A stretch of DNA of 38,204 bases from positions 1 through 38,204 of the forward strand of contig JAFGXX010000068.1 of NCBI GenBank assembly GCA_016936435.1, written 5' to 3'. A model generated the notes under the pieces. It saw nothing but the letters and a program-made list of their open reading frames with translations. It was not told where the DNA came from and ran no database searches. The position numbers and the translations under genes are program-made. The stretch comes from Bacteroidales bacterium. GTDB lineage: Bacteria; Bacteroidota; Bacteroidia; Bacteroidales; VadinHA17. Each line of letters begins with the position of its first letter. Position 1 is the first letter of the stretch. Shown in pieces: positions 1 to 37,782 of the stretch.

Positions 1-477
1 ATTCCTTCGGTGGAAAAGGGTTTCCATGAGGCAATGTCGAACGGTCCCCTTGCAGGATTTCCTCTCGAAAATTTAAAAGTGGTTTTAAAAGACGGTTCAT
101 ACCATCCGGTTGACTCCGATGCACTCTCGTTCGAAATTGCTGCAAAACAGGCATTCCGGCGTTATGCAGGCAAATGTAACCCTGTGTTGCTGGAGCCCGT
201 AATGTCGACGGAAGTGGTAACTCCCGAAGAATATGTCGGCGATGTAATAAGCGATTTCAACAAACGCAGAGGCAGGGTGGAAGGTATGGAATCGAAAGCA
301 GGTGCAAGGGTTGTCAGGGCAAAAGTACCTCTGGCAGAAAAATTCGGCTATGTTACTGTACTCCGGACCCTTACCTCGGGAAGAGCTACTTCAACCATGG
401 AGTTCTCACATTATGAAGAGGTGCCTGCAGAGATAGCTAACAGAATTGTCGAACTTACAAAAGGAAAAATTCTTTAA
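1..477 (+). CDS. fusA: Elongation factor G, C-terminal part (truncated by window start)
   Basis: Frame open from base 1; '[33 protein letters not shown]' and '[27 protein letters not shown]' are EF-G domain IV/V motifs; lies directly upstream of rpsJ. Confidence 0.97.
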
Positions 478-479
478 AG

Positions 480-785
480 ATGAGTCAGAAAATCAGGATC
501 AAATTAAAATCTTACGATCATAACCTCGTGGATAAATCTGCCGAGAAGATCGTTAAAACCGTAAAATCTACAGGTGCGGTTGTCAGCGGCCCGATACCGC
601 TTCCTACCCACAAAAAGATCTTTACTGTTCTGAGGTCGCCGTTTGTCAACAAGAAAGCCAGGGAACAATTCCAGCTGTCATCATACAAGCGTCTGCTCGA
701 TATCTACAGCTCAACGCCCAAAACAATCGATGCTCTCATGAAACTTGAGCTTCCCAGCGGGGTTGAAGTTGAAATCAAAGTGTGA
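480..785 (+). CDS. rpsJ: 30S ribosomal protein S10
   Basis: '[21 protein letters not shown]...[28 protein letters not shown]' S10 signature. Confidence 0.98.
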
Positions 786-806
786 AACCAGTAAAGTAAT
801 ACCAAG

Positions 807-1427
807 ATGCAGGGATTAATAGGAAAAAAGGTGGGAATGACATCCCTCTTCGACGAAGAAGGGAAAAATATCCCGTGTACGGTTCTGCAGGCCGGTCCGT
901 GTGTTGTAACACAGATCAAGACTGTTGAAAGAGATGGTTACTTTGCCGTACAGATAGGATTTGACGAAAAGAAGGAAAAACATTCTACAAAGGCTGAAAT
1001 AGGACACTTCAAAAAAGCCGGTACCACTCCCAGGAAGAAAGTTGTCGAATTTGATGGATTCAGAGAGGGCCAGGTCAGGGAAGGAGAAGTACTTACCGTT
1101 GACCTTTTTAAGACTGACACTTTTGTGGATGTCAGAGGATGGTCGAAGGGAAAAGGATTCCAGGGCGTCGTGCGGCGTCATGGTTTCGGTGGTGTAGGCG
1201 GACAGACCCACGGTCAGCATAACAGGGGCAGAGCTCCCGGTTCGCTTGGCGCATCGTCTTTCCCCTCACGGGTGCTCCCGGGTATGCGTATGGCAGGCCG
1301 TATGGGAGGCAATAAAGTTGCTTCCATAAGTATGGAAATAATGAAGCTTATGGAAGAGAACAATATTCTTATAGTTAAAGGATCGGTGCCCGGTCCTAAA
1401 GGTGGTTACGTAATAATAACAAAATAA
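807..1427 (+). CDS. rplC: 50S ribosomal protein L3
   Basis: '[17 protein letters not shown]', '[15 protein letters not shown]' motifs. Confidence 0.98.
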
Positions 1428-2056
1428 TGGAATTAGCTGTTGTCAATATTAACGGTAAGGAAACCGGAAGGAAAGTTAATCTTAACGATTCCATTTTCGG
1501 CATTGAGCCAAACGACCATGCCATATACCTCGATACAAAACAGTACATGGCAAAGCAGCGTCAGGGAACCCATAAATCGAAGGAAAGAGGTGAGGTTTCA
1601 GGAAGTACCCGTAAGATCAAAAGACAGAAAGGTACAGGTACGGCTCGCGCAGGGAGCATCAAGAACCCTCTCTTCAGAGGTGGCGGCCGTGTTTTCGGTC
1701 CGCAGCCAAAAGACTACGAGTTCAAACTGAACAAAAAAGTGAAGCAACTGGCAAGAAAATCAGCTCTTTCGTACAAGGCATCTTCACAAAATATCATCGT
1801 GGTGGAAGACTTCTCCCTTGAAGCTCCCAAAACAAAAGAAATTGTCAAAATAGAGACGAATCTGAATCTCAGCAAGAAAAAATCGCTTATTGTTTTATCG
1901 GAACCAAATAAAAATGTATATTTGTCAGCCCGAAATACACAAGGGCTTGAAGTTGTAACGGCCAATGCGTTAAATACTTATGAGATAATGAGGGCTTCAA
2001 CTTTGGTGCTTGTGGAGAGTGCAATTGACGTTTTGCAGGCAACTTTTGAAAATTAG
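1427..2056 (+). CDS. rplD: 50S ribosomal protein L4
   Basis: '[38 protein letters not shown]'; start ATG overlaps rplC stop (TAATG). Confidence 0.98.
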
Positions 2057-2069
2057 AAAAATTTAAGTG

Positions 2070-2360
2070 ATGAATATTCTGCTTAAACCCTTAGTAACTG
2101 AAAAAATGACAGCCCAGGGCGATAAATTCAACCGTTATGGATTTATTGTCGATAAAAAGGCTAACAAGTTACAGATCAAAAAAGCCGTTGAGGATTTATA
2201 CGGAGTAACTGTTGACTCGGTTAACACTCTTCGCTATGGCGGAAAAGTGAAGACACGAAATACAAAATCAGGACTCCTGACAGGGAAGACAAATGCTTAT
2301 AAAAAAGCTGTTATTACCCTTGCCGAAGGAAGTAAGATAGATTTCTATAGCAATATTTAA
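2070..2360 (+). CDS. rplW: 50S ribosomal protein L23
   Basis: '[13 protein letters not shown]...[24 protein letters not shown]'. Confidence 0.97.
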
Positions 2361-2368
2361 AAACCAGT

Positions 2369-3193
2369 ATGGCAGTCAGAAAGATCAAACCTGTAACACC
2401 AGGTCAGAGACACAAGATCATCAGCGCTTTTGACAATATCACAAGCGCTGCGCCGGAGAAATCCCTCCTCATGCCGCTGAAAAAATCAGGAGGAAGGAAT
2501 GTTAACGGCCACAGGACTATGAGGTACATCGGCGGCGGTCATAAAAAGATGTACAGGGTCATCGATTTCCACAGAAATAAAGATGACGTGCAAGCAACCG
2601 TAAAAACGATAGAGTACGATCCCAACAGATCATCGAGGATCGCACTCGTTGTTTATGAGGATGGAGAAAAGAGATATATCATTGCCCCTGCAGGACTGAC
2701 TGTCGGAAGCCATATTCTCTCAGGGAAAAATGCAGCTCCCGAAATAGGAAATACAATGTTCCTCAGCGACATACCTCTCGGAACCATAGTTCATAACATT
2801 GAACTGAAACCGGGCAAGGGAGCAGCTCTGGCCCGCAGCGCAGGAACTTATGCGCAGCTGTCAGCCCGTGAAGGTAAATATGCTACCATAAAGCTTCCTT
2901 CGGGCGAAACCAGGATGGTGCTTACTGAATGCCGTGCAACCATAGGTACTGTTTCAAATGCCGATCATAACCTGGAGAAGTCAGGTAAGGCAGGCCGCTC
3001 GCGCTGGCAGGGAAGAAGACCCAGAGTCAGAGGCGTCGTCATGAATCCCGTCGATCACCCAATGGGCGGTGGCGAAGGAAGAGCATCAGGAGGTCACCCG
3101 CGCTCACGTAAGGGGATGCCGGCTAAAGGATTTAAAACCAGAGACAGGAAAAAGTATTCCGCCAAACATATTATTGAAAGAAGGAAAAAATAA
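2369..3193 (+). CDS. rplB: 50S ribosomal protein L2
   Basis: '[17 protein letters not shown]', '[28 protein letters not shown]'. Confidence 0.98.
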
Positions 3194-3203
3194 CTGATAT
3201 ACT

Positions 3204-3467
3204 ATGAGCAGATCAATTAAAAAAGGACCCTTTATTGATTTTAAGCTTGAGAAGAGAGTTCTTGAGATGAATGACAGCGGGAAGAAATCAGTGGTCAAGA
3301 CCTGGTCGAGAAGGTCGGTTATATCGCCTGACTTCGTCGGACATACTATAGCAGTTCATAACGGCAATAAGTTTATACCTGTTTACATTACCGAGAACAT
3401 GGTGGGCCACAAGCTCGGAGAATTTGCGCCTACACGTACCTTCAGAGGTCACTCGGGTAATAAGTAA
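3204..3467 (+). CDS. rpsS: 30S ribosomal protein S19
   Basis: '[19 protein letters not shown]...[21 protein letters not shown]'. Confidence 0.98.
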
Positions 3468-3497
3468 TAAATGTAAACACCGAAAATATCTTAAAAA

Positions 3498-3917
3498 ATG
3501 GGTGCAAGAAAAAGAAATACAGCTGAAGCCAGGAAAGAGGCAGCCAGGACAAATTACCAGGCAGTACTGAGAAACTGTCCCACCTCCCCCAGAAAAATGA
3601 GACTGGTAACAGGTCTTATCAGTGGCAAGGAAGTGAACAAAGCCCTTGATATACTGAAATACAGCTCACAGGAAGCATCGCGCCGGCTGGAGAAGTTGCT
3701 TCTTTCAGCCATTGCAAACTGGCAGGCAAAAAATGAAGGCGTGAGAGTCGAAGACAGCAACCTTTATGTCAAAAACATTCATGTCGACGGCGGCCGGACG
3801 CTGAAAAGACTGCAGACAGCGCCACAGGGAAGAGCATACAGACTGAGGAAAAGATCAAATCATGTTACTCTTGTGCTCGACAGCAGAAATAAGGAAGTTG
3901 AAAATACAGCAAAATAA
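3498..3917 (+). CDS. rplV: 50S ribosomal protein L22
   Basis: '[27 protein letters not shown]', '[31 protein letters not shown]'. Confidence 0.97.
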
Positions 3918-3922
3918 TTCAA

Positions 3923-4621
3923 ATGGGACAGAAAGTTAATCCGATAGGCAACAGGCTGGGTATAATAAAAGGCTGGGACTCAAATTGGTACGGAGGAAAA
4001 GACTTTTCCGGGAAACTGGTTGAAGACACGAAGATCAGGGAATACCTGAATGCCAGGCTCGCCAAAGCCAGTATCTCAAAAATCGTTATTGAAAGAACAC
4101 TGAAGCTTATCACAGTAACCGTTAATACCGCACGTCCGGGGATAATAATCGGAAAAGGCGGACAGGAAGTTGACAAGCTTAAGGAAGAACTCAGGAAGAT
4201 CACCAAAAAAGAAGTCCAGATAAATATTTATGAGGTTAAACGCCCCGAACTTGATGCAAATATTGTAGCCAGTAACGTAGCCCGCCAGGTTGAAGGCAAA
4301 ATATCATACAGGCGTGCAATAAAAATGGCCATCGCATCCACAATGAGAATGGGTGCCGAAGGTGTCAAGATGGTTATCTCGGGCCGTCTGGGTGGTGCTG
4401 AAATGGCACGTACCGAAACCTACAAGGAAGGCCGGATACCTCTCCATACTTTCAGGGCCGATATCGATTATGCCCTGGCTGAAGCACATACCAAGGTCGG
4501 ACTTATAGGTATCAAAGTCTGGATTTGCAATGGCGAGGTGTATGGCAAAAGAGACCTTAGCCCCAACATAGGAGCAAGGAATGCCAAAGGAAAGAACATG
4601 AAGAGGAAAGGGAAGAAATAG
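3923..4621 (+). CDS. rpsC: 30S ribosomal protein S3
   Basis: '[23 protein letters not shown]', KH motif '[15 protein letters not shown]'. Confidence 0.98.
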
Positions 4622-4653
4622 AGAGTTCAAAATAATTTTTAAGATATAAAGCA

Positions 4654-5073
4654 ATGTTACAACCAAAAAGGTCCAAATACAGGAGAGCCCAGAAAGGGAG
4701 AATGAAAGGCAATGCACAGCGTGGCAACCAGCTGGCATTCGGATCATTTGGCATCAAGGCTCTGGAACAGAGCTGGATCACCGGCAGGCAGATAGAAGCA
4801 GCCCGCCAGGCTGTAACCCGTCATATGAAACGTGAAGGACAGCTATGGATCAGGGTGTTCCCGGATAAACCCATAACAAAAAAACCGGCTGAAGTGAGAA
4901 TGGGTAAGGGAAAAGGAGCACCTGAAGGATTTGTGGTTCCCGTTACCCCGGGAAGAATAATACTTGAGGCTGAAGGAGTCTCCTTCCAGGTTGCAAAGGA
5001 AGCACTGATGCTTGGTGCCCAGAAACTTCCGGTGACAACAAAATTTATTGTGCGCCGCGATTACGTTGAGTAA
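4654..5073 (+). CDS. rplP: 50S ribosomal protein L16
   Basis: '[19 protein letters not shown]...[42 protein letters not shown]'. Confidence 0.98.
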
Positions 5074-5090
5074 TACAAAATATCAGAGAG

Positions 5091-5294
5091 ATGAAAATAT
5101 CAGAAATAAGGGAATTAAGTACTCCTGATCTTCTTGAAAGGATCGACACGGAGAAAACAATGCTCGTCAGAATGAAGATGAACCATGCTATTACTCCTCT
5201 CGACAATCCTCAGAAAATCAAGCAGGTAAAGCTCACCATCGCACGCCTGCTTACCGAACTGAGAGCCAGGGAATCAAAACAAAATACTAATTAG
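5091..5294 (+). CDS. rpmC: 50S ribosomal protein L29
   Basis: Small alpha-helical ORF '[18 protein letters not shown]...[16 protein letters not shown]' in the L16-S17 slot. Confidence 0.95.
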
Positions 5295-5305
5295 CCGTAT
5301 CAGCA

Positions 5306-5560
5306 ATGGAAAGGAAATTAAGAAAAGAACGAATCGGTGTCGTTTTAAGTAATAAAATGGACAAATCTATCGTGGTTGCGGTAAGAAGAAAAGTAAAGCA
5401 TCCTATTTACGGCAAGTTCATCAATACCACAAAGAAGCTGATGGCACACGATGAGGAGAATTCATGCAACGTCGGCGATACGGTTCGTATATCGGAGACC
5501 AGGCCTCTGAGCAAAAATAAATCCTGGAGAGTGGTTGAAATAATTGAAAGAGCTAAGTAA
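5306..5560 (+). CDS. rpsQ: 30S ribosomal protein S17
   Basis: '[30 protein letters not shown]...[32 protein letters not shown]'. Confidence 0.97.
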
Positions 5561-5562
5561 TC

Positions 5563-5928
5563 ATGATACAGCAGGAAACAAGGCTAACAGTAGCCGACAA
5601 TTCAGGTGCCAAGGAAGTGTTATGCATCAGGGTTCTGGGAGGCAGTAAAAAAAGATATGCCACTGTCGGCGACAAGATTGTAGTGAGTGTAAAATCAGCG
5701 CTCCCGTCAGGAGAAGCAAAGAAAGGCACAGTAAGCAAGGCTGTCGTGGTAAGGACCAAAAAGGAGATCCGCAGAGCCGACGGATCCTATATCAGGTTTG
5801 ACGACAATGCCGTGGTATTGCTTAACAATCAGGATGAAGTCCGCGGAACCCGTATTTTCGGCCCGGTGGCAAGAGAACTGCGCGAAAAATTCATGAAGAT
5901 AGTTTCACTCGCACCTGAAGTATTGTAA
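5563..5928 (+). CDS. rplN: 50S ribosomal protein L14
   Basis: '[33 protein letters not shown]'. Confidence 0.98.
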
Positions 5929-5947
5929 TTTTTATATCAAAGAAACA

Positions 5948-6271
5948 ATGCAAAAGAAAATAAATATAAAAAAGGGCGATACGGTTATGGTAATAACCGG
6001 AGAGTCGAAAGGTCAGAAAGGACGTGTGCTTACTGTTGACAGGGATAAGGAAAGGGCTATAGTTGAAGGAGTTAACCTGGTATCCAAACACACCAAACCT
6101 AATTCCAAAGCCCCCCAGGGAGGTATCATAAGAAAAGAAGCCCCTGTTCACCTGTCAAACCTGATGCTCATAGATCCGACATCGGGAAAACCGACACGTA
6201 TCGGACGCAAACCCGGTCAGAAAGGTAAACTAGTACGTTATTCAAAAAAATCAGGAGAGGAGATCAAATAA
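5948..6271 (+). CDS. rplX: 50S ribosomal protein L24
   Basis: KOW motif '[23 protein letters not shown]'; '[12 protein letters not shown]'. Confidence 0.97.
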
Positions 6272-6822
6272 TGTATACACCTGCACTGAAAACGAAATAT
6301 AGCAGCGAGATTATACCTGCATTAATGAAGGAATTCGGCTACAAGACCGTTATGGAGGTCCCCAGGCTGGAAAAAATTGTGTTAAACCAGGGTGTCGGAC
6401 AGGCTATAGCCGACAAGAAATTACTCGAATCAGGAGTTAAGGAACTTTCCGATATAGCCGGACAGAAAGCAGTCCTTACATATTCTTCCAAGGATATATC
6501 AAATTTCAAACTGAGAAAGAATATGCCTATCGGAATAATGGTCACACTCAGAAAAGAAAGGATGTATGAATTCCTTGAGAGGCTTATCTCGGTAGCACTG
6601 CCGCGAATCCGCGATTTCAAGGGTATCAACGCCAAACTTGACGGAAGGGGTAATTATACCCTGGGAATTACCGAACAGATCATTTTCCCCGAGATAGACC
6701 TCGATAAGATCACAAAGATCATGGGACTCCAGATAACCTTTGTCACCTCGGCGAAAACTGACGAAGAGGCACTGTCGCTGCTCAAAAATTTCGGATTACC
6801 ATTCAAAACATCTAAAAACTGA
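6271..6822 (+). CDS. rplE: 50S ribosomal protein L5
   Basis: '[18 protein letters not shown]', '[11 protein letters not shown]'-type motif, '[22 protein letters not shown]'. Confidence 0.98.
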
Positions 6823-6826
6823 TAAT

Positions 6827-7096
6827 ATGGCCAAGGAATCAATGATAGCCCGGGAGGTTAAACGTGCCAGAATGGCACAGAAATATTCAGCCAAAAGAGC
6901 CCAGCTTAAAGCAGCAGGCGATTATGTAGGGCTGAGCCGTATTCCCAGGAACTCTAACCCCAACCGCCAGCGTAACCGCTGTAAAATAACAGGTCGTACC
7001 AGGGGTTACATGAGACAGTTCGGGATCAGCAGAATAACCTTCAGGGAAATGGCTTCATTCGGACTGATACCCGGTGTGAAAAAAGCCAGCTGGTAA
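6827..7096 (+). CDS. rpsN: 30S ribosomal protein S14 (89 aa, no CxxC zinc motifs)
   Basis: ATG at 6827 inside the longer 6740 ORF; '[16 protein letters not shown]...[39 protein letters not shown]'. Confidence 0.97.
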
Positions 7097-7131
7097 TTGA
7101 GGAAAATATAAACAAATAATTTGAACAGAAA

Positions 7132-7530
7132 ATGACTGATCCAATTGCTGATTTACTGACCAGAATAAGAAACGCCATAATGGCCGGTCATAAAATTGTT
7201 GAGGCACCTGCTTCCGGTCTTAAAAAGGAAATAGCAAGAATACTTTTTGAAAAAGGATATATACTGAGCTATAAAGTTGTTGAAGGCAAAAATCCTCAGG
7301 GCATTCTGAAGATAGCCCTCAAGTACAATCCAAGGAGCAAGAAACCTGCAATCAAGGAACTGCAGCGTGTAAGCCGTCCAGGATTAAGGAATTATGCCGG
7401 TGCCGAAGACCTGCCGCGAATTTTGAACGGACTGGGAATAGCAATTATTTCCACCTCAAAGGGGCTGATGACCGATAAGGAAGCCAGAAAAGAGAACATT
7501 GGCGGTGAAGTGTTGTGTTATGTTTATTAA
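7132..7530 (+). CDS. rpsH: 30S ribosomal protein S8
   Basis: '[20 protein letters not shown]', '[31 protein letters not shown]'. Confidence 0.98.
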
Positions 7531-7542
7531 AAGGAGAAAACA

Positions 7543-8097
7543 ATGTCACGAATAGGAAAATTACCTGTAAACCTGCCCGCGGGGGTCACTGTGAACATCA
7601 GCAGCGACAACTTGGTCAGCGTGAAAGGGCCTCTGGGTGAACTTACCCGTGTTGTTGATAAAGATATTAATATTGAAATTAAAGACAACCAGGTTGTGAT
7701 AACCAGGCCTTCGGAATCAAAGAGACATAAGTCTATGCATGGGCTTTACCGTGCGCTCATAGCCAACATGGTTACGGGTGTTTCGGAAGGATACAAAAAG
7801 GAGCTTGAACTTGTAGGAGTAGGCTACCGTGCCGAGGCAAAAGGACAGCAGCTTGAGATGAGCCTGGGTTACTCGCATGATATTATAATGATGCTCCCCG
7901 ATGAGGTTAAGATTGAAACAAAAACCGAAAGGAGAAGTAACCCGATAATAACTCTCAAAAGTATCGATAAACAGCTCATCGGTCATGTGGCAGCAAAGAT
8001 CAGGTCTCTTCGTCCGCCTGAGCCCTACAAGGGAAAGGGGATCAAATTCGTGGGCGAACAGCTGAGAAGGAAAGCCGGTAAATCGGCAAGTGTGTAA
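7543..8097 (+). CDS. rplF: 50S ribosomal protein L6
   Basis: 'MSRIGKLPVNLPAGV', 'RPPEPYKGKGIKFVGEQLRRKAGK'; unusually strong AAGGAG just upstream. Confidence 0.98.
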   Translation: MSRIGKLPVNLPAGVTVNISSDNLVSVKGPLGELTRVVDKDINIEIKDNQVVITRPSESKRHKSMHGLYRALIANMVTGVSEGYKKELELVGVGYRAEAKGQQLEMSLGYSHDIIMMLPDEVKIETKTERRSNPIITLKSIDKQLIGHVAAKIRSLRPPEPYKGKGIKFVGEQLRRKAGKSASV

Positions 8098-8129
8098 CAG
8101 GTATGTTAATCTGGTAAAAGTTTAAAAAA

Positions 8130-8492
8130 ATGGCCTTAACGACGTTGGAACGCAGGACAAGGATCAAAATGAGGATCCGGAAAAGAATAAGCGGCACTGC
8201 AGATGTCCCGAGACTCGCAGTATTCCGCAGCAACAAACAGATATATGCACAGGTTGTTGACGACCTGGCCCGGGTAACCCTTCTTTCAGCTTCATCGAGG
8301 GAGAAGGACGTTGCCGCAAAATCGGCAGGTAAGAATAAAACAGAACAGGCAAAGATGGTCGGTGAACTGCTCGCTTCAAAATGCCGCGAAAAAGGCATTG
8401 AGAGAGTGGTGTTCGACAGGAGCGGATATAAATATCATGGCAGAGTAAAATCATTGGCAGATTCAGCCCGCGAAGGCGGATTAAAATTCTAG
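8130..8492 (+). CDS. rplR: 50S ribosomal protein L18
   Basis: '[35 protein letters not shown]', '[27 protein letters not shown]'. Confidence 0.98.
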
Positions 8493-8498
8493 TTGATC

Positions 8499-9014
8499 AT
8501 GGCAGAAGGTATAAGAAAAGTGAAAACCAGCGACCTGGAACTTAAAGACAGGCTTGTAAGCATTCAGAGAGTTACCAAGGTTACAAAAGGTGGAAGAACA
8601 TTCAGTTTCTCGGCTATAGTGGTTGTGGGAAATGAAAACGGTGTAGTCGGACATGGCCTCGGTAAGGCCAGTGAAGTAACCACCGCCATAGCCAAGGGAA
8701 TTGAAGATGCCAAGAAAAACCTCATAAAGGTTCCCGTGATCAATGGCACCATACCGCACGAGCAGATTGCAAAGTTCGGTGGTGCAAGGGTATTTATCAA
8801 ACCGGCTTCTCCCGGTACCGGCGTTAAGGCAGGAGGTGCTATGCGTGCCGTCCTCGAAAGCGTCGGAGTAAAGAATGTCCTCGCCAAATCAAAGGGATCT
8901 TCAAATCCGCACAACCTTGTTAAGGCAACATTTGCTGCTTTGCTTGAAATGCGCGATGCATACAACATCGCCGAGCACAGGGGAGTAAAACTGGAAAAAG
9001 TGTTTAATGGTTAG
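8499..9014 (+). CDS. rpsE: 30S ribosomal protein S5
   Basis: '[42 protein letters not shown]'. Confidence 0.98.
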
Positions 9015-9028
9015 CAATAATTGATACT

Positions 9029-9208
9029 ATGGCAAAGATTCGTATCACCCAGGTGAAAAGCAGGAACGGTAAACCTGAAAGACAAAAGCGGACACTCGAT
9101 GCTCTCGGTATCCGTAAACTTAACCACAGTGTGGAGAAGGAAGCTACTCCTCAGATACTGGGAATGGTTGCCAGGGTAAGTCACCTGGTTAAAGTTGAGA
9201 ACATTTAG
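9029..9208 (+). CDS. rpmD: 50S ribosomal protein L30 (59 aa; absent from the ORF track)
   Basis: ATG 9029 to TAG 9208 read by hand: MAKIRITQVKSRNGKPERQKRTLDALGIRKLNHSVEKEATPQILGMVARVSHLVKVENI; expected position between rpsE and rplO. Confidence 0.96.
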   Translation: MAKIRITQVKSRNGKPERQKRTLDALGIRKLNHSVEKEATPQILGMVARVSHLVKVENI

Positions 9209-9239
9209 GTATTAAATTTTATTTGAAAGATATAACATC

Positions 9240-9686
9240 ATGGATTTGAGTAACTTAAAATCTGCCAAAGGCTCTGTCAAAAAGAGCAAGCGTTTAGGCC
9301 GCGGTCAGGGTTCCGGAAATGGCGGTACGTCGACCAGAGGTCATAAAGGAGCAAAGTCCAGGTCAGGCTTCAGCAAAAAGATCGGATTTGAGGGAGGACA
9401 GATGCCACTGCAGAGACGTGTTCCGAAGTTCGGGTTCAAAAATATCAACCGCAGGGAATACAAAGGCATAAATATTAATGTACTTCAGTCGCTGGCTGAG
9501 AAAAATAACCTTGATAAAATCGATATTGACGTTCTTGTGAAGTCAGGTCTTGTTTCAAAAAATGCCCTCGTAAAGATACTGGGAAGAGGAACACTTGACA
9601 GAACACTGGAAGTTCATGCCCATGCCTTCAGCAAATCGGCTGTTGCTGCTATTGAAGCCAGGAAAGGAACTGTTGTAAAACTTTGA
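9240..9686 (+). CDS. rplO: 50S ribosomal protein L15
   Basis: 'KSKRLGRGQGSGNGGTSTRGHKGAKSRSG', 'GGQMPLQRRVPKFGFKN'. Confidence 0.98.
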   Translation: MDLSNLKSAKGSVKKSKRLGRGQGSGNGGTSTRGHKGAKSRSGFSKKIGFEGGQMPLQRRVPKFGFKNINRREYKGININVLQSLAEKNNLDKIDIDVLVKSGLVSKNALVKILGRGTLDRTLEVHAHAFSKSAVAAIEARKGTVVKL

Positions 9687-9690
9687 TCTC

Positions 9691-11028
9691 ATGAGATTCA
9701 TTCAGACCATTAAGAACATTTTTAAGATCGAGGACCTTCGTGCAAGGTTGATATATACTTTCGCCATAATAATGCTGTACAGGCTTGGCAAATATGTAAG
9801 CCTCCCCGGTATTAACCCGCAGTTCCTCGGAAATCTTCAGGACAGCACTTCGCAGGGTATTATGGGGCTCCTCGACATGTTCTCGGGAGGCGCATTCTCC
9901 CAGGCTTCCATATTTGCCCTGGGTATCATGCCCTATATCTCAGCCTCGATCGTGGTCCAGCTGCTGGGGATCGTCTTTCCCTACTTTCAGAAACTCCAGA
10001 GGGAGGGCGAGAGCGGCAGACGTAAAATGAATCAGTATACACGTTATCTGACAGTTATAATACTTGTACTCCAGGCTCCTACTTACCTTATAAGTCTTTC
10101 CAGAACCCTCGACCCCCAGGCTTTTGTACTCACCGGTAACTATCAGCGCTTTTTTATGATATCCTCGACGGTAATCCTTACCGCGGGTACCATCTTTGTT
10201 ATGTGGCTTGGTGAAAAAATCACCGACAAAGGTATCGGGAACGGTATCTCACTATTGATAATGATAGGTATCATCGCCAGGCTGCCGCAAAATTTCCTCT
10301 TTGAGTGGGGAACAAGAATGAACGGAACCGGTGGACCTGTTGCTCTTATCGTGGAGATAATATTCTGGTTCGTGGTAATAATAGGATGTATTATGCTGGT
10401 ACAGGGAACACGAAGGGTTCCGGTTCAGTATGCCCGCCGTATAATTGGAAACAAGCAGTACGGGGGGGTCAGACAGTATATCCCTCTCAAGGTGAACGCT
10501 GCAGGGGTAATGCCGATAATATTTGCACAGGCGATTATGATGCTTCCCATGCTTCTGGCAGGCTTCAGGGATGAGAGTTCAGGATTTGTGGTTACATTTT
10601 CGAATATATACGGATTCTGGTATAACATGGTGACCGCATTGCTGATAATCGCCTTCACATATTTCTATACCGCCATAACAATAAATCCCGTTCAGATGGC
10701 TGAAGATATGAAGAAGAACGGAGGCTTTATTCCTGGAATAAAACCCGGAAGGAAAACTGTTGAATTCTTCGACATGATCATGTCGAGGATAACTCTTCCC
10801 GGTTCAATATTCCTTGCAATTGTTGCAATACTGCCCGCTATCGCGGTAATAGCAGGTGTCACACCCCAGTTTGCGCAGTTCTACGGAGGAACTTCGCTGC
10901 TCATACTTGTGGGTGTTGTTCTCGATACGCTTCAGCAGATTGAAAGTCATCTGCTCATGAGGCACTATGACGGTCTGATGAAATCGGGCCGTATAAAGGG
11001 AAGAACAGGCGCTGTAACAGCGATATAG
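9691..11028 (+). CDS. secY: Preprotein translocase subunit SecY
   Basis: Multi-TM; 'PGINPQFLGN', 'FALGIMPYISASIVVQLL', 'GIGNGISLLIMIGI', 'LKVNAAGVMPIIFA'. Confidence 0.98.
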   Translation: MRFIQTIKNIFKIEDLRARLIYTFAIIMLYRLGKYVSLPGINPQFLGNLQDSTSQGIMGLLDMFSGGAFSQASIFALGIMPYISASIVVQLLGIVFPYFQKLQREGESGRRKMNQYTRYLTVIILVLQAPTYLISLSRTLDPQAFVLTGNYQRFFMISSTVILTAGTIFVMWLGEKITDKGIGNGISLLIMIGIIARLPQNFLFEWGTRMNGTGGPVALIVEIIFWFVVIIGCIMLVQGTRRVPVQYARRIIGNKQYGGVRQYIPLKVNAAGVMPIIFAQAIMMLPMLLAGFRDESSGFVVTFSNIYGFWYNMVTALLIIAFTYFYTAITINPVQMAEDMKKNGGFIPGIKPGRKTVEFFDMIMSRITLPGSIFLAIVAILPAIAVIAGVTPQFAQFYGGTSLLILVGVVLDTLQQIESHLLMRHYDGLMKSGRIKGRTGAVTAI

Positions 11029-11050
11029 ACAAGGCAGAATACGTTCTTTG

Positions 11051-11827
11051 ATGTTGTACTTAAAGACCGATGAAGAGGTAGAGTCCCTCAGGGAAAGCAA
11101 CATGCTGGTGTCGCGGACACTTGCTGAAGTTGCCAGGCATATAAGGCCGGGTGTTACCACTCTTTATCTCGACAGGATTGCAGAAGAATTCATCCGTGAT
11201 CATTCGGCAGTTCCGGCATTCAAGGGTTATGGTGGTTTCCCCGCCACACTCTGCACATCGGTCAATGAAGAGGTGGTCCATGGTATCCCTTCAGCTTATC
11301 AGCTACGCGAGGGAGACATCATCTCAGTGGATTGTGGTGTAATACTTAAGGGCTGGTATGGCGACAGTGCATACACTTTCGCGGTGGGGGATATATCCGT
11401 TGAGGTGAAAAAGCTTATCGACTACACCAGGGAATCGCTTGAAGAAGGTGTGAGGTCGGCAGTAGCAGGAAACAGGGTAGGAGATGTCTCATACTCTGTT
11501 CAGAAAAAAGCCGAAAGCGGAGGATTCTCAGTAGTAAGGGAGCTTGTTGGTCACGGCCTGGGACGGAAATTGCATGAGCCCCCTGAGGTTCCGAACTTCG
11601 GTAAAAGGGGGACAGGACCAAAGCTGGAGAAAGGGCTGGTGATCTGCATCGAACCCATGATAAACATGGGAAGAAAAGAAACACGTCAGATGAGCGACGG
11701 CTGGACCATCAGGACTCTCGACGGCAAACCATCGGCACATTTTGAATATGCTGTTGCCGTAAACAGGGAGAAGGCTGACGTGCTGACGACATTTGAATTT
11801 ATTGAGGAAGTAATTAATAAAATCTGA
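11051..11827 (+). CDS. map: Type I methionyl aminopeptidase
   Basis: '[42 protein letters not shown]', '[18 protein letters not shown]', 'IEPMINMG'. Confidence 0.98.
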
Positions 11828-11831
11828 TTGT

Positions 11832-12050
11832 ATGGCCAAGCAACCATCAATTGAACAGGACGGCACTATTATTGAAGCCCTTTCCAATGCCATGTTCAGG
11901 GTTGAACTCGAGAACGGGCATGTAATCACCGCGCATATCTCAGGTAAAATGAGAATGCACTATATTAAAATACTTCCCGGAGACAGGGTAAAGGTCGAAA
12001 TGTCACCTTACGACCTGACAAAAGGCAGAATAACATTCAGATATAAATAG
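11832..12050 (+). CDS. infA: Translation initiation factor IF-1
   Basis: '[72 protein letters not shown]'. Confidence 0.98.
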
Positions 12051-12064
12051 AAATAGATACGGTA

Positions 12065-12181
12065 ATGAAAGTAAGAGCATCTGTAAAGAAGCGCAGCGCT
12101 GACTGTAAGATAGTCAAGAGAAAAGGGCGCATTTACGTTATCAATAAGAAAAATCCCAAGTTCAAACAGAGACAGGGATAA
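12065..12181 (+). CDS. rpmJ: 50S ribosomal protein L36 (38 aa; absent from the ORF track)
   Basis: Read by hand: [38 protein letters not shown]; between infA and rpsM. Confidence 0.96.
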
Positions 12182-12187
12182 AATAAC

Positions 12188-12195
12188 TATTTTTG
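12188..12195 (+). promoter_or_regulatory. Candidate Bacteroidota -7 box (TATTTTTG) between rpmJ and rpsM
   Basis: Exact match to TAnnTTTG; no good -33 TTG (TTC at about the right distance). Confidence 0.45.
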
Positions 12196-12220
12196 CAACT
12201 CAATTTTAAGAAAGTAAAAT

Positions 12221-12598
12221 ATGGCACGAATCATTGGTGTTGATTTACCAAGAAATAAGATAGGAGAAGTAGGACTGACCTATATTTACGGCGTTGGAAG
12301 AAGTACAGCACAAAAGGTACTTGACCAGGCCGGTGTTGACAGGAGCATTAAAGTAGAGGAGTGGACGGACGAGCAGATTAACTCCATTCGCCGGATACTG
12401 AGCGAAAATTACAAGCTTGAGGGAGAACTCCGTTCGGAGACACAAATGAATATCAAGCGTCTGATGGATATTGGCTGTTACCGTGGTGTCCGCCACAGAC
12501 TGGGACTTCCCGTGAGGGGGCAAAGTACCAAGAACAATGCCAGGACCCGCAAGGGCAGAAAAAAGACTGTTGCAAACAAGAAGAAAGCTACTAAATAA
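12221..12598 (+). CDS. rpsM: 30S ribosomal protein S13
   Basis: '[34 protein letters not shown]', '[37 protein letters not shown]'. Confidence 0.98.
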
Positions 12599-12605
12599 AT
12601 AAACT

Positions 12606-12995
12606 ATGGCAAAGAAGACCGGAGCATTAAAGAAGAGGGTAGTAAGGGTAGAACCTCAGGGTCAGGCACATATTCATTCATCATTCAATAATATCATCAT
12701 TACTCTGACCAACAATTCGGGGCAGGTCATATCGTGGGCTTCTGCCGGGAAGATGGGATTCAAGGGTTCCAAGAAGAATACCCCCTATGCAGCTCAGATG
12801 GCATCGGAGGAGTGTGGTAAAGTGGCATTCGATCTGGGACTTAGAAAGGTAAAAGTCTTTGTGAAAGGGCCAGGATCGGGACGTGAATCGGCTATCAGGG
12901 CAATATCGAATGTGGGAATAGAGGTAATGGAGATCGTCGATGTGACGCCACTGCCTCATAATGGCTGCCGTCCTCCCGGAAGAAGAAGAGTCTAA
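12606..12995 (+). CDS. rpsK: 30S ribosomal protein S11
   Basis: '[44 protein letters not shown]', '[18 protein letters not shown]'. Confidence 0.98.
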
Positions 12996-13032
12996 AAATA
13001 TTTGAAGTCAGGATTTTAAAAACAGAATAACA

Positions 13033-13641
13033 ATGGCAAGATATACAGGTCCAAGATCAAGAGTCGCAAGAAAATTTGGAGATCCTATTTATGGCCCTGA
13101 CAAGTACCTCGACAGGAAAAACTTCCCTCCGGGGCAGCACGGGCAGAACAAGAAAAGAAAGAAGACATCTGAATACGGTATCCAGCTCCGTGAGAAGCAG
13201 AAGGCAAAATATACATACGGTATCCTCGAGCGTCAGTTCAGAAACACATTTGAGAAAGCTTCAAGGTCGAAAGGCGTCACAGGCGAAGTCCTCCTGCAGA
13301 TGCTGGAATCGAGGCTCGACAATGTTGTATACCGTCTGGGTATAGCTCCTACAAGAGCCTCTGCGCGCCAGCTCGTCTCTCACCGTCATATCACCGTTAA
13401 CGGTGCGGTGGTGAATGTTCCTTCATCACAGGTGAAGCCCGGAGATATTATTGGCGTCAGGGAAAAATCAAAATCACTCGAAACGATAGTCGATTCTCTT
13501 ACAACAAGAAAAACATCAAAGCTGTCATGGCTGGAATGGGACGACACTCAAATGGCAGGAAAATTCATGAGCATTCCTGAAAGGGCTGATATACCCGAAG
13601 ATATTAAGGAGCAACTTATCGTTGAATTGTATTCAAAGTAA
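13033..13641 (+). CDS. rpsD: 30S ribosomal protein S4
   Basis: '[24 protein letters not shown]', '[33 protein letters not shown]'. Confidence 0.98.
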
Positions 13642-13659
13642 TTATTTAAGATAAAATCT

Positions 13660-14652
13660 ATGGCCATATTATCATTCCAGAAACCCGATAAAGTAATAAT
13701 GCTGGAAGCGGACAACAAGCTCGGCAAGTTCGAGTTCCGTCCACTTGAACCTGGCTATGGTATTACTGTTGGTAATGCTCTAAGAAGGATACTTCTCTCT
13801 TCACTCGAAGGCTATGCTATCACAACCGTAAGGATTGATGGTGTAGATCACGAATTTTCCACCATCAAAGGTGTAATGGAAGACGTTACGGAGATCATCC
13901 TTAAACTGAAACAGGTCAGATTCAGAAGAACTGTTGATGACGTTGAACACGAAAAAGTTTCTGTAAAAATAAGTAACAAGGAGATCTTTAAGGCCGGTGA
14001 TCTTAACGGTGTGCTCAGCAGCTTCGAGGTGCTAAACCCCGAACTGGTTTTGTTCAGGATGGAACCTGCGGTAAAACTACAGGTTGAGTTTACCATAAAC
14101 AAAGGCCGCGGATATGTTCCTGCTGAGGAAAATGAACCCGAGGAAAGCGAATTCGGACTTATTGCAATAGATTCAATATTCACGCCGGTCAGGAATGTGA
14201 AATATTCCATTGAGAACTATAGGGTTGAAGAAAAAACCGACTACGAAAAACTGCTTTTCGAAATAGAGACCGACGGCTCAATACATCCCAAGGAGGCCCT
14301 TAAGGAAGCTGCCAAAATCCTCATATACCACTTTATGCTCTTCTCCGACGAAAAGATCACTATCGATTCCGACGATAAGCTGGCAAACGAAGAGTTTGAT
14401 GAGGAAGTACTTCATATGAGGCAGCTCCTGAAAACCAAGCTCATCGACCTCGATCTTTCGGTCAGGGCACTTAACTGCCTTAAGGCTGCTGAGGTTGAGA
14501 CACTCGGAGACCTGGTCAAATTCAATAAAAATGATCTCCTGAAATTCAGGAACTTCGGGAAAAAATCACTTACTGAGCTTGATGAACTGCTTGATTCAAT
14601 GAGCCTTTCGTTCGGGATGGACGTGAGCAAGTACAAGTTAGAGAAAGATTAA
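13660..14652 (+). CDS. rpoA: DNA-directed RNA polymerase subunit alpha
   Basis: '[60 protein letters not shown]'; C-terminal '[43 protein letters not shown]'. Confidence 0.98.
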
Positions 14653-14678
14653 TCTGAAAACGGGAAGGGAACAAAGCA

Positions 14679-15260
14679 ATGCGACATTCAAGAGTTATAA
14701 ATCATTTAGGAAGAACGAGTTCACACAGGAAATCGATGCTTGCCAACATGGCATCGTCACTGATATTGCATAAGAGGATCACTACCACCACCGCCAGGGC
14801 GAAAGCTTTGAGAACCTATGTGGAGCCTCTGATAACAAAATCAAAGGAAGATTCAACTCACTCCAGAAGAGAGGTCTTCAGCTTTCTTAAGGACAAGCAG
14901 GCTGTAGCCGAGCTTTTCAGGGAGATATCACCCAGGATCACCGACAGGCCGGGCGGCTATACCCGTATACTCAAGACAGGTAACAGAATCGGTGATAACG
15001 CTGAAATGTGTATCATGGAGCTCGTGGATTACAATGAGAACATGCTCGGAACGGCTGAGACAACTAAGACGAAAGGCCGCAGGAGAAGACCCTCCTCAAA
15101 GAAAAAAGCCGAGGCAGAAGACTCACAGAAAAAATCAGCCCCTGTAGCAAAAAAGACAGCTGAGGAACCTGTCGCTGAAGCACAGTCAGAAACCGCAGGT
15201 GCTACCGGAGAAGATACAGCCGCCGGTGAAACGGAGGAGACTCAGGAGGACAGTAAATAA
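14679..15260 (+). CDS. rplQ: 50S ribosomal protein L17 with ~60-aa low-complexity C-terminal extension
   Basis: '[56 protein letters not shown]'; tail rich in K/A/E/T/G. Confidence 0.97.
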
Positions 15261-34868: not shown

Positions 34869-35384
34869 CTAGAATGGGAGGTCATCTTCGCTCTGCACAC
34901 CACCCGGAGTATCATTGAAAGGATCAGCTTTTATTGATCCGGTGTCGTCTGATTCATTTTTTTGCCGGTATGCAGAATCCGGTTCGCCTGCTTCAGTCAC
35001 TTCACCCTGTGTCTTTTCAGTATTCTGTGTAGTGTCATATGTATTTCCGGCTCCCTGTTTTTTCTCCAGGACGAGCATGGTGTCGGCAAGGATTTCGGTT
35101 ATATATTTATTGTTCCCGTCTTTGTCGACGTAGGATCTGGTTTTAATTTTTCCCACAATATATAACTGTGTACCCTTTTTGACGGTTTTTTCGGCCACTT
35201 CGGCAAGTGATCTCCACAGTACAATATTGTGCCATTCTGTTGAGGTTATTGTTTCACCCTGCTGGTTTGTGTATGTTTCACTTGTGGCAAGGGGAAAAGT
35301 CGCTTTGGCCACACCCCTGTCAAAATATCTTACTACGGGGTCTTTTCCGACATTGCCTACAAGGATGACTTTATTGATTGACAT
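34869..35384 (-). CDS. ssb: Single-stranded DNA-binding protein
   Basis: 'MSINKVILVGNVGKDPVVRYF...ATSETYTNQQGETITSTEWHNIVLWRSLAEVAEKTVKKGTQLYIVGKI'; C-terminal acidic tip 'EDDLPF'. Confidence 0.97.
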   Translation of the reverse strand: MSINKVILVGNVGKDPVVRYFDRGVAKATFPLATSETYTNQQGETITSTEWHNIVLWRSLAEVAEKTVKKGTQLYIVGKIKTRSYVDKDGNNKYITEILADTMLVLEKKQGAGNTYDTTQNTEKTQGEVTEAGEPDSAYRQKNESDDTGSIKADPFNDTPGGVQSEDDLPF

Positions 35385-35655
35385 GTACTTAGAAATTAAA
35401 TTGTTATATTAAATACGGGTGTGTAAAGGTAAGAAAAAAAGCTTTATATATTTCATCTTTTACCGATAACCCTGAAATGTGCCATATTATATGTGGAGGG
35501 AGAACCCGGGGCAGGCAGGTATTAATGCCTTTACCGGCGGAAATATTGGCATCAGCGGGAGAGAAGGTTTTCTATTTCATTGTCTTTTAGGCAATAATAA
35601 AATCATTTTATAAAAATTATTATGTAAGTGTTTCTATTTAAATAAATAATATTTC

Positions 35656-35663
35656 TATATTTG
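35656..35663 (+). promoter_or_regulatory. Candidate -7 box (TATATTTG) upstream of hup
   Basis: Exact TAnnTTTG match ~58 bp before the ATG in a very AT-rich stretch. Confidence 0.5.
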
Positions 35664-35720
35664 CAGGGTTGAAAAAAAGAATATACACTATAATTTGTTG
35701 AATTTTAAATTTCATGTAAA

Positions 35721-36008
35721 ATGACAAAAGCAGACATTGTTAATGAGATTGCCAAGAACACTGGTATTGAAAAGGTAACAGTACAAAAAACTGTAGAAGC
35801 CTTGATGGAAACTATAAAACAATCTATGGTTGCTGGTAATAACGTTTATCTCAGGGGTTTCGGAAGCTTTATAGTTAAGAAGAGGGCCAAGAAAACCGCA
35901 AGGAATATTTCCAAAAATACCACCATCATCATTCCTGCACACAACATTCCGGCTTTCAAACCGGCTAAAACATTTATCACCAAGGTTAAATCACACGTTA
36001 AGAAATAA
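35721..36008 (+). CDS. hup: HU family DNA-binding protein
   Basis: 'MTKADIVNEIAKNTGIEKVTVQKTVEALMETIKQSMVAGNNVYLRGFGSFIVKKRAKKTARNI'. Confidence 0.95.
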   Translation: MTKADIVNEIAKNTGIEKVTVQKTVEALMETIKQSMVAGNNVYLRGFGSFIVKKRAKKTARNISKNTTIIIPAHNIPAFKPAKTFITKVKSHVKK

Positions 36009-36014
36009 TTCCCC

Positions 36015-36104
36015 ATGCCAAGCGGAAAAAAGAGAAAAAGACATAAGATGGCCACTCACAAACGTAAAAAACGTTTGCGGAAAAACAGACATAAGAAGAG
36101 ATAG
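36015..36104 (+). CDS. 29-aa very basic protein, bS22/mS38 (DUF1713)-like small ribosomal protein candidate
   Basis: Read by hand: MPSGKKRKRHKMATHKRKKRLRKNRHKKR, ATG 36015, TAG 36102-36104; between hup and a terminator. Confidence 0.75.
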   Translation: MPSGKKRKRHKMATHKRKKRLRKNRHKKR

Positions 36105-36137
36105 CGAATCATCGAGTGGTCTTATTCTGAACATATT

Positions 36138-36170
36138 AACCTAAAGGTCAGACGATCTTTAGGTTTTATG
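36138..36170 (+). terminator. Intrinsic terminator after the 29-aa ORF
   Basis: AACCTAAAG(36138-36146) ... CTTTAGGTT(36157-36165) perfect 9-bp stem followed by TTATG. Confidence 0.7.
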
Positions 36171-36222
36171 TATATATATGTCGGTAAACACAAATCATCT
36201 TAACTCAGCTTAATACAAGGAA

Positions 36223-37782
36223 GTGGCAAATAAGGATCTCATCATTGATGTAAGTGATTCCGAGGTCTCTTTAGCGTTGTTGGAAGACAAGCAGTTAATT
36301 GAGTTAAACAAGGAAAAGCGCAATATAAGGTTTTCGGTAGGAGACATTTACCTGGGTAAGGTTAAAAAGATCATGCCCGGACTTAATGCTGCCTTTGTCA
36401 ATGTGGGTTATGAACGGGATGCTTTCCTGCATTACCTAGATCTGGGAGCTCAGTTCAGGACCCAGCACAAATATTATCTCTCTGCCATGCAGCGGCAGGG
36501 AAAAGTTATCCCTGTCCATAAATTCAAGCCAGACCCCGACATCGACAAAGACGGAAAGATATCGGATGTACTTACACAGGGGCAGACGGTGATAGTACAG
36601 ATTACTAAGGAACCTATTTCCACCAAGGGGCCCCGGCTGGCTTCGGAGATCTCACTGGCAGGAAGAAATCTGGTTCTTATACCCCATTCCGACAAGGTTT
36701 CCATCTCATCAAAGATCGAGAATCCGGATGAGAAGAACAGGCTCAAAACCTTGTTGCAGAGCATAAAGCCAAAGAACTACGGTGTTATTGTACGAACTGC
36801 CGCTGAGGGCAAGAAGGTTGCTGTCCTTGATGCCGAGCTAAGAGAACTGGTTCAAAAATGGGAGTCGGCCTTTGCAGGGGTAAAAAAAGAAATAAAGTCG
36901 CCCCGCCTCTTTATAGGGGAGATGAACCGGACCTCGACGATAGTTCGCGACATGCTGAACGTGACCTTCAACAGCATTCATATAAATAACGAAGCTCTTG
37001 CAGAAGAGATAAGGAAATATATAAAGGAGATAGCTCCCGAGAAGGCAAAAATTGTCAGGCTTTATAAAGGTACTATTCCGATATTCGATCATTTTGGGGT
37101 CAACAAGCAGATAAAGGCGCTTTTTGGGAAAACAGTTTCATTCAGACATGGCGCCTATCTTATTATTGAACACACTGAAGCCCTGCATGTTATCGACGTA
37201 AACAGTGGCAATCGCTCACGCAAAAGCAACGACCAGGAATCAAATTCGCTTGAGGTAAACATGGAAGCCGCGGTCGAAATTGCCAGACAACTCAGGCTGA
37301 GGGATATGGGAGGTATAATCGTGATCGATTTCATTGATATGCAGGCGGCCGAACATAAACAGGTCCTTTTTGAAAAGATGAAGGAAGTGATGGCCGGTGA
37401 CCGTACCAAGCATAACATCCTGCCTCTCACCAAATTCGGGCTTATGCAGATAACACGTCAGAGAGTAAGGCCTGAAATGAGTATTGTAACCGACGAAAAA
37501 TGTCCTGCCTGTCAGGGTACCGGTACTACCAGACCCACAATTCTATTTCCGGATGAAATAGAAAAGAACCTTGCATTCATCCTCGACAAAATAAAAACAA
37601 GGAGACTAATACTTAACCTTCATCCATTCCTGGCTGCCTGGTATACCAGGGGATTGTTCCCGATAGCCCTGAAATGGAGTCTGAAATACAGGATCCTTAT
37701 TAAAGTCCAGGCAGTAACTGCCTATCATATGCTGGAATACCACTTTCTGGACTGGCAGGGCAACGAGATCGACCTGGAATAA
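36223..37782 (+). CDS. rng: Ribonuclease E/G family protein (RNase G), GTG start
   Basis: 'SVGDIYLGKVKKIMPGLNAAFVNVGYERDAFLHYLDL', 'HVIDVNSGNRS', 'RLRDMGGIIVIDFIDMQ', 'CPACQGTGTT'. Confidence 0.95.
   Translation: MANKDLIIDVSDSEVSLALLEDKQLIELNKEKRNIRFSVGDIYLGKVKKIMPGLNAAFVNVGYERDAFLHYLDLGAQFRTQHKYYLSAMQRQGKVIPVHKFKPDPDIDKDGKISDVLTQGQTVIVQITKEPISTKGPRLASEISLAGRNLVLIPHSDKVSISSKIENPDEKNRLKTLLQSIKPKNYGVIVRTAAEGKKVAVLDAELRELVQKWESAFAGVKKEIKSPRLFIGEMNRTSTIVRDMLNVTFNSIHINNEALAEEIRKYIKEIAPEKAKIVRLYKGTIPIFDHFGVNKQIKALFGKTVSFRHGAYLIIEHTEALHVIDVNSGNRSRKSNDQESNSLEVNMEAAVEIARQLRLRDMGGIIVIDFIDMQAAEHKQVLFEKMKEVMAGDRTKHNILPLTKFGLMQITRQRVRPEMSIVTDEKCPACQGTGTTRPTILFPDEIEKNLAFILDKIKTRRLILNLHPFLAAWYTRGLFPIALKWSLKYRILIKVQAVTAYHMLEYHFLDWQGNEIDLE

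Follow-up and report, generated by a model that had tools for sequence, protein, structure and literature searches.

An uncommonly basic reading frame between hup and rng in a Bacteroidales genome as a predicted gene for the small-subunit ribosomal protein bS22

Between hup, which codes for an HU-type DNA-binding protein of 95 residues (35721-36008, + strand; Pfam Bac_DNA_binding, E = 7.1e-27), and rng, which codes for a ribonuclease of the E/G family of 519 residues (36223-37782, + strand; Pfam RNase_E_G, E = 1.5e-95), a Bacteroidales contig carries a very short and strongly basic open reading frame, raising the question of whether it is a gene at all and, if so, what its product does. The DNA analysed here, hereafter the window, is a stretch of 38,204 nucleotides (contig C121) from a genome of 3.2 Mb in 257 contigs, estimated to be 98% complete. 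The first-pass annotation had described a basic frame of 29 residues placed 6 bp after the hup stop codon, and both statements are borne out: the frame runs from 36015 to 36104 on the + strand, from ATG to TAG, its translation, read directly from the sequence and exactly as proposed, being MPSGKKRKRHKMATHKRKKRLRKNRHKKR, and the hup stop codon TAA (36006-36008) is followed by a spacer of 6 bases (36009-36014). Lysine and arginine make up at least 45% of the peptide, a proportion reached by no other of the 179 small ORFs (25-60 aa) of the window and by none of the 4403 small ORFs of the same size range found in 20 shuffled windows. As set out below, matches to chains of deposited structures, purifying selection and conservation across the phylum make it almost certain that this is the gene of the 29-residue small-subunit ribosomal protein bS22, most likely carried on the hup message and probably translated from hup, whose product would be a helix in a pocket of the 30S subunit, stabilising rRNA and adding an intersubunit contact.

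The way in which the frame varies bears on whether it is a gene. Across 24 members of the genus, the variable codon positions comprise 25 third positions vs 3 first and 1 second; variation is purely synonymous in 24 codons, and one codon varies in the encoded amino acid (R29K). In the same 24 genomes, 23 amino-acid changes with respect to the window are observed vs about 123 expected from a random placement of those base changes, the 23 changes being the single last-residue difference R29K counted once for each of 23 relatives. Strong purifying selection acts on the segment 36015-36104, a genuine gene. A chance open frame within the 3' untranslated region of hup might be suspected from the length of only 29 codons and from the fact that no Shine-Dalgarno sequence precedes the ATG; such a reading is nevertheless at odds with the 24 codons varying only synonymously, with the retention of the ORF throughout the phylum and with the failure of shuffled sequences to reproduce a frame so basic, and its probability is practically nil, the substitution pattern having already refuted it.

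The identity of the product emerges from solved structures. Searched as a single sequence, the peptide gives three matches, all of them full-length and gap-free, to chain 10 of 9i5v (E = 2.4e-10), chain 5 of 7jil (9.6e-10) and chain V of 8fmw (1e-5); a profile of 25 relatives retrieves the same chains at 2.1e-14, 3.3e-15 and 8.1e-11, respectively. Chain 10 of 9i5v is deposited as an AURKAIP1/COX24 domain-containing protein, while the five PDB entries sharing the 7jil chain 5 sequence (7jil, 9oz9, 9ozn, 9ozz and 9p0e) name it either 30S ribosomal protein S22 or 50S ribosomal protein L38. Entry 7jil is the ribosome of Flavobacterium johnsoniae, in keeping with PMC10618245 and PMC10085706. All 29 residues of the window peptide align without gaps to the F. 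johnsoniae chain, which has V for M12, A for L21, A for K23 and K for R29, together with one extra terminal K; its 30 residues are encoded identically in a Bacteroidota relative (locus L067), where the gene is again located between hup and rng. Chain 10 of 9i5v/9i5x differs from the window peptide at 3 of the 29 positions, carrying N3, K22 and K29, plus one extra K. The Borrelia burgdorferi protein (8fmw chain V, bb0822) belongs to a different phylum and its gene starts with GUG, whereas that of the window starts with ATG; the match is still full-length, with a shared MP-G-K...THKRKK...RKNRHKK frame. On these alignments the window peptide is orthologous to the solved Bacteroidota bS22. The earlier suggestion of an easily missed Bacteroidota ribosomal protein beside hup and rng was thus correct, since three sets of ribosome structures include orthologues among their modelled chains; the reading frame is conserved in relatives, and the peptide is present on the ribosome in 7jil and in two further structure sets. 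The find is, at the same time, not new: because structures and papers describe orthologues, the identity of the Bacteroidota bS22 is both right and already published.

Published structures of these orthologues also indicate where the protein should bind. The F. johnsoniae and Borrelia bS22 occupy a 16S rRNA pocket between h2, h27, h44 and h45 and touch H68 of the 23S rRNA, the Borrelia protein being closest to that of F. johnsoniae (PMC10618245); the site matches that of bS22 in mycobacteria, mS38 in mitochondria and eL41 in eukaryotes, and the protein is described as an analogue of mS38 and eL41 (PMC10618245; PMC10085706), and in Cutibacterium acnes (C. acnes) bS22 lies at the same site and forms a new intersubunit bridge (PMC10085706). 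By analogy with its close orthologues, the window bS22 should bind in the h2/h27/h44/h45 pocket; it would fold there as a bent basic helix, contact H68 in the 70S ribosome, stabilise the packing of rRNA, steady the neck/bridge region of the 30S subunit and add an intersubunit contact. A second role outside the ribosome, such as an antimicrobial activity, is suggested by the growth inhibition that the C. acnes protein caused in disk assays with E. coli and staphylococci (PMC10085706), but any free cationic helix may be inhibitory in an assay of this kind, no export gene adjoins bS22 and no hydrophobic signal is found within the 29 residues, so that a dual function of the window peptide is very unlikely.

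The relationship to the better-known members of the family is less straightforward than the common site would imply. The first-pass annotation had noted a likeness to actinobacterial bS22 and mS38. According to published structures, mycobacterial and C. acnes bS22 and mS38/AURKAIP1 share the same pocket, while the sequence itself stays below the cut-offs of both family models. In particular, the Pfam model PF08213 COX24_C (mS38/DUF1713) aligns weakly and co-linearly with the window peptide over profile positions 3-29 of 33 (12.7 bits, E = 0.12), below its gathering cut-off of 23 bits; among 25 relatives it picks up 9 at E values of up to 10 (the best being 0.0014), and 10 shuffled peptides gave no match to it, so that the likeness, although marginal, is probably genuine. 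Used as a query in a genome search, COX24_C finds a match in 1 of 21 genomes (E = 0.6), though several of these carry bS22 according to the profile of relatives built here. The NCBIfam equivalog NF047430 ribo_bS22 (cut-off 34 bits) does not match the window, 7jil or 9i5v peptides; it recognises mycobacterial bS22 (query in agreement with the deposited chain letter for letter) at 62.6. The profile-profile comparison proposed earlier reached, against actinobacterial bS22, a score of 16.7 and E = 8.4e-4 with hhalign, yet 14 of 200 column-shuffled profiles scored as high, and for this reason sequence homology to the actinobacterial protein is not claimed. Shared ancestry with bS22 of actinobacteria and with mS38 is argued from structural position, the link in sequence being marginal; in size and architecture, too, the proteins differ, mycobacterial bS22 having 33 residues vs 29 in the window and the mitochondrial counterpart being the C-terminal domain of a longer protein.

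The genomic surroundings were surveyed in a sample of named genomes scanned with the rng protein, rather than the peptide, as query. In all 80 loci so obtained bS22 lies about 170-570 bases upstream of rng, and in 78 of them hup lies upstream of bS22, the remaining two (L088 and L157) being at contig ends; the hup-bS22-rng order anticipated for relatives is thus kept, and is typical of the class without being a published criterion for bS22 membership. The distance between hup and bS22 is mostly 5-8 bases in the genus of the window and mostly 15-95 bases in other families, and in 4 of the 80 loci it widens to 529-996 bases, space enough for another gene; at locus L039, from another family, a 281-residue protein with TPR-like repeats, recognised by eye, is encoded between the two (618-1463). 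Tight coupling of hup and bS22 is therefore not general, given the longer gaps and the intervening gene seen elsewhere. Proteins with TPR-like repeats (again by eye) separate hup from bS22 in several families, including at locus L034 (about 640-1381). In other classes of the phylum hup often adjoins bS22, while rng was not found beside it; since the linkage to hup extends to these classes, it looks ancestral to the phylum. This adjacency in most members, and the very basic character of the peptide, might be taken to indicate a nucleic-acid-binding peptide working with HU in nucleoid packaging, off the ribosome; against such a function, the orthologues have been built into the ribosome models of three sets of structures, at about one copy per 30S subunit in those of F. 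johnsoniae and Borrelia, and, where another gene interrupts the linkage to hup, the peptide sequence is unchanged. It was rejected on these two grounds and is extremely unlikely.

For bS22 as a ribosomal protein, the short distance from hup bears on its expression. The terminator announced at 36138-36165 (+ strand) is indeed represented there by a terminator-like hairpin of 12 pairs with a T-rich tail, closing the hup-bS22 unit and preceding rng; a scan for such hairpins returned 2 sites in the region vs 0.8 expected in shuffles, and a similar hairpin (AAACCTAAAG...CTTTAGG) occurs 3' of bS22 in almost every relative within the genus. The -7 promoter element of Bacteroidota has the consensus TAnnTTTG, matched upstream of hup by TATATTTG (35656-35663, + strand), a putative promoter element of hup-bS22 proposed from this match, for which no convincing -33 element was identified. 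A search of 35380-36300 against Rfam found nothing. The short gap, the downstream hairpin and TATATTTG as a possible promoter element argue for co-transcription, hup and bS22 being most likely carried on one short two-gene message that ends at the 36138-36165 hairpin; likewise, the missing Shine-Dalgarno sequence and the 6-base gap point to translational coupling, bS22 being probably translated by ribosomes coming from hup.

How far the protein can be dispensed with is illustrated by its distribution. Of 297 near-complete genomes taken from the whole phylum, 289 gave a match to bS22 (E <= 0.01), nearly always in single copy, and a match was also obtained in 55 of 60 near relatives (39 of 40 in the good-quality subset); Labilibaculum and Marinifilum, cultured relatives within the Bacteroidales, carry the gene as well (L100 and L102). 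In the eight phylum genomes without it, a more sensitive profile gave nothing at a meaningful E-value. Three of these, G286, G334 and G346, are different species of one genus (loci L170, L168 and L169), in which hup is kept, no basic ORF follows it and the downstream convergent gene is apparently the same as in the bS22-bearing congeners (L077 and L078); bS22 has apparently been cleanly lost between hup and the convergent gene. In three other near-complete genomes (G206, G254 and G258, three species of genus g122 in family f60; 2-30 contigs) bS22 was undetected even with the phylum profile, while in the fragmented G308 and G355 its absence may reflect incompleteness. As some near-complete genomes have no detectable bS22, the protein is not universally needed, and the few lineages with a clean loss are natural deletions in which its contribution to the 30S subunit could be probed. 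It could be speculated, though this is rather improbable, that throughout the phylum the shared message makes a nucleoid protein and an intersubunit-bridge protein together, thereby matching chromosome packing to ribosome number, and that the lineages which lost bS22 rewired this arrangement or compensated for it in h44/h45 of the 16S rRNA.

The locus matters mainly for annotation: nearly all sampled genomes of the phylum carry bS22, yet gene callers tend to miss it, its size of about 29-35 codons being under common gene-calling limits. The Borrelia gene had likewise been overlooked in annotation (PMC10618245). At their cut-offs, the curated bS22/mS38 models NF047430 and PF08213 both miss 36015-36104 of the window, and this gap likely affects much of the phylum; a Bacteroidota-specific model, combined with the position relative to hup and rng, would mend it. 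On the same contig, a large cluster of ribosomal protein genes, running from S10 to L17 and including secY, map and rpoA, fills positions 1-15260 of the window, about 21 kb from bS22.
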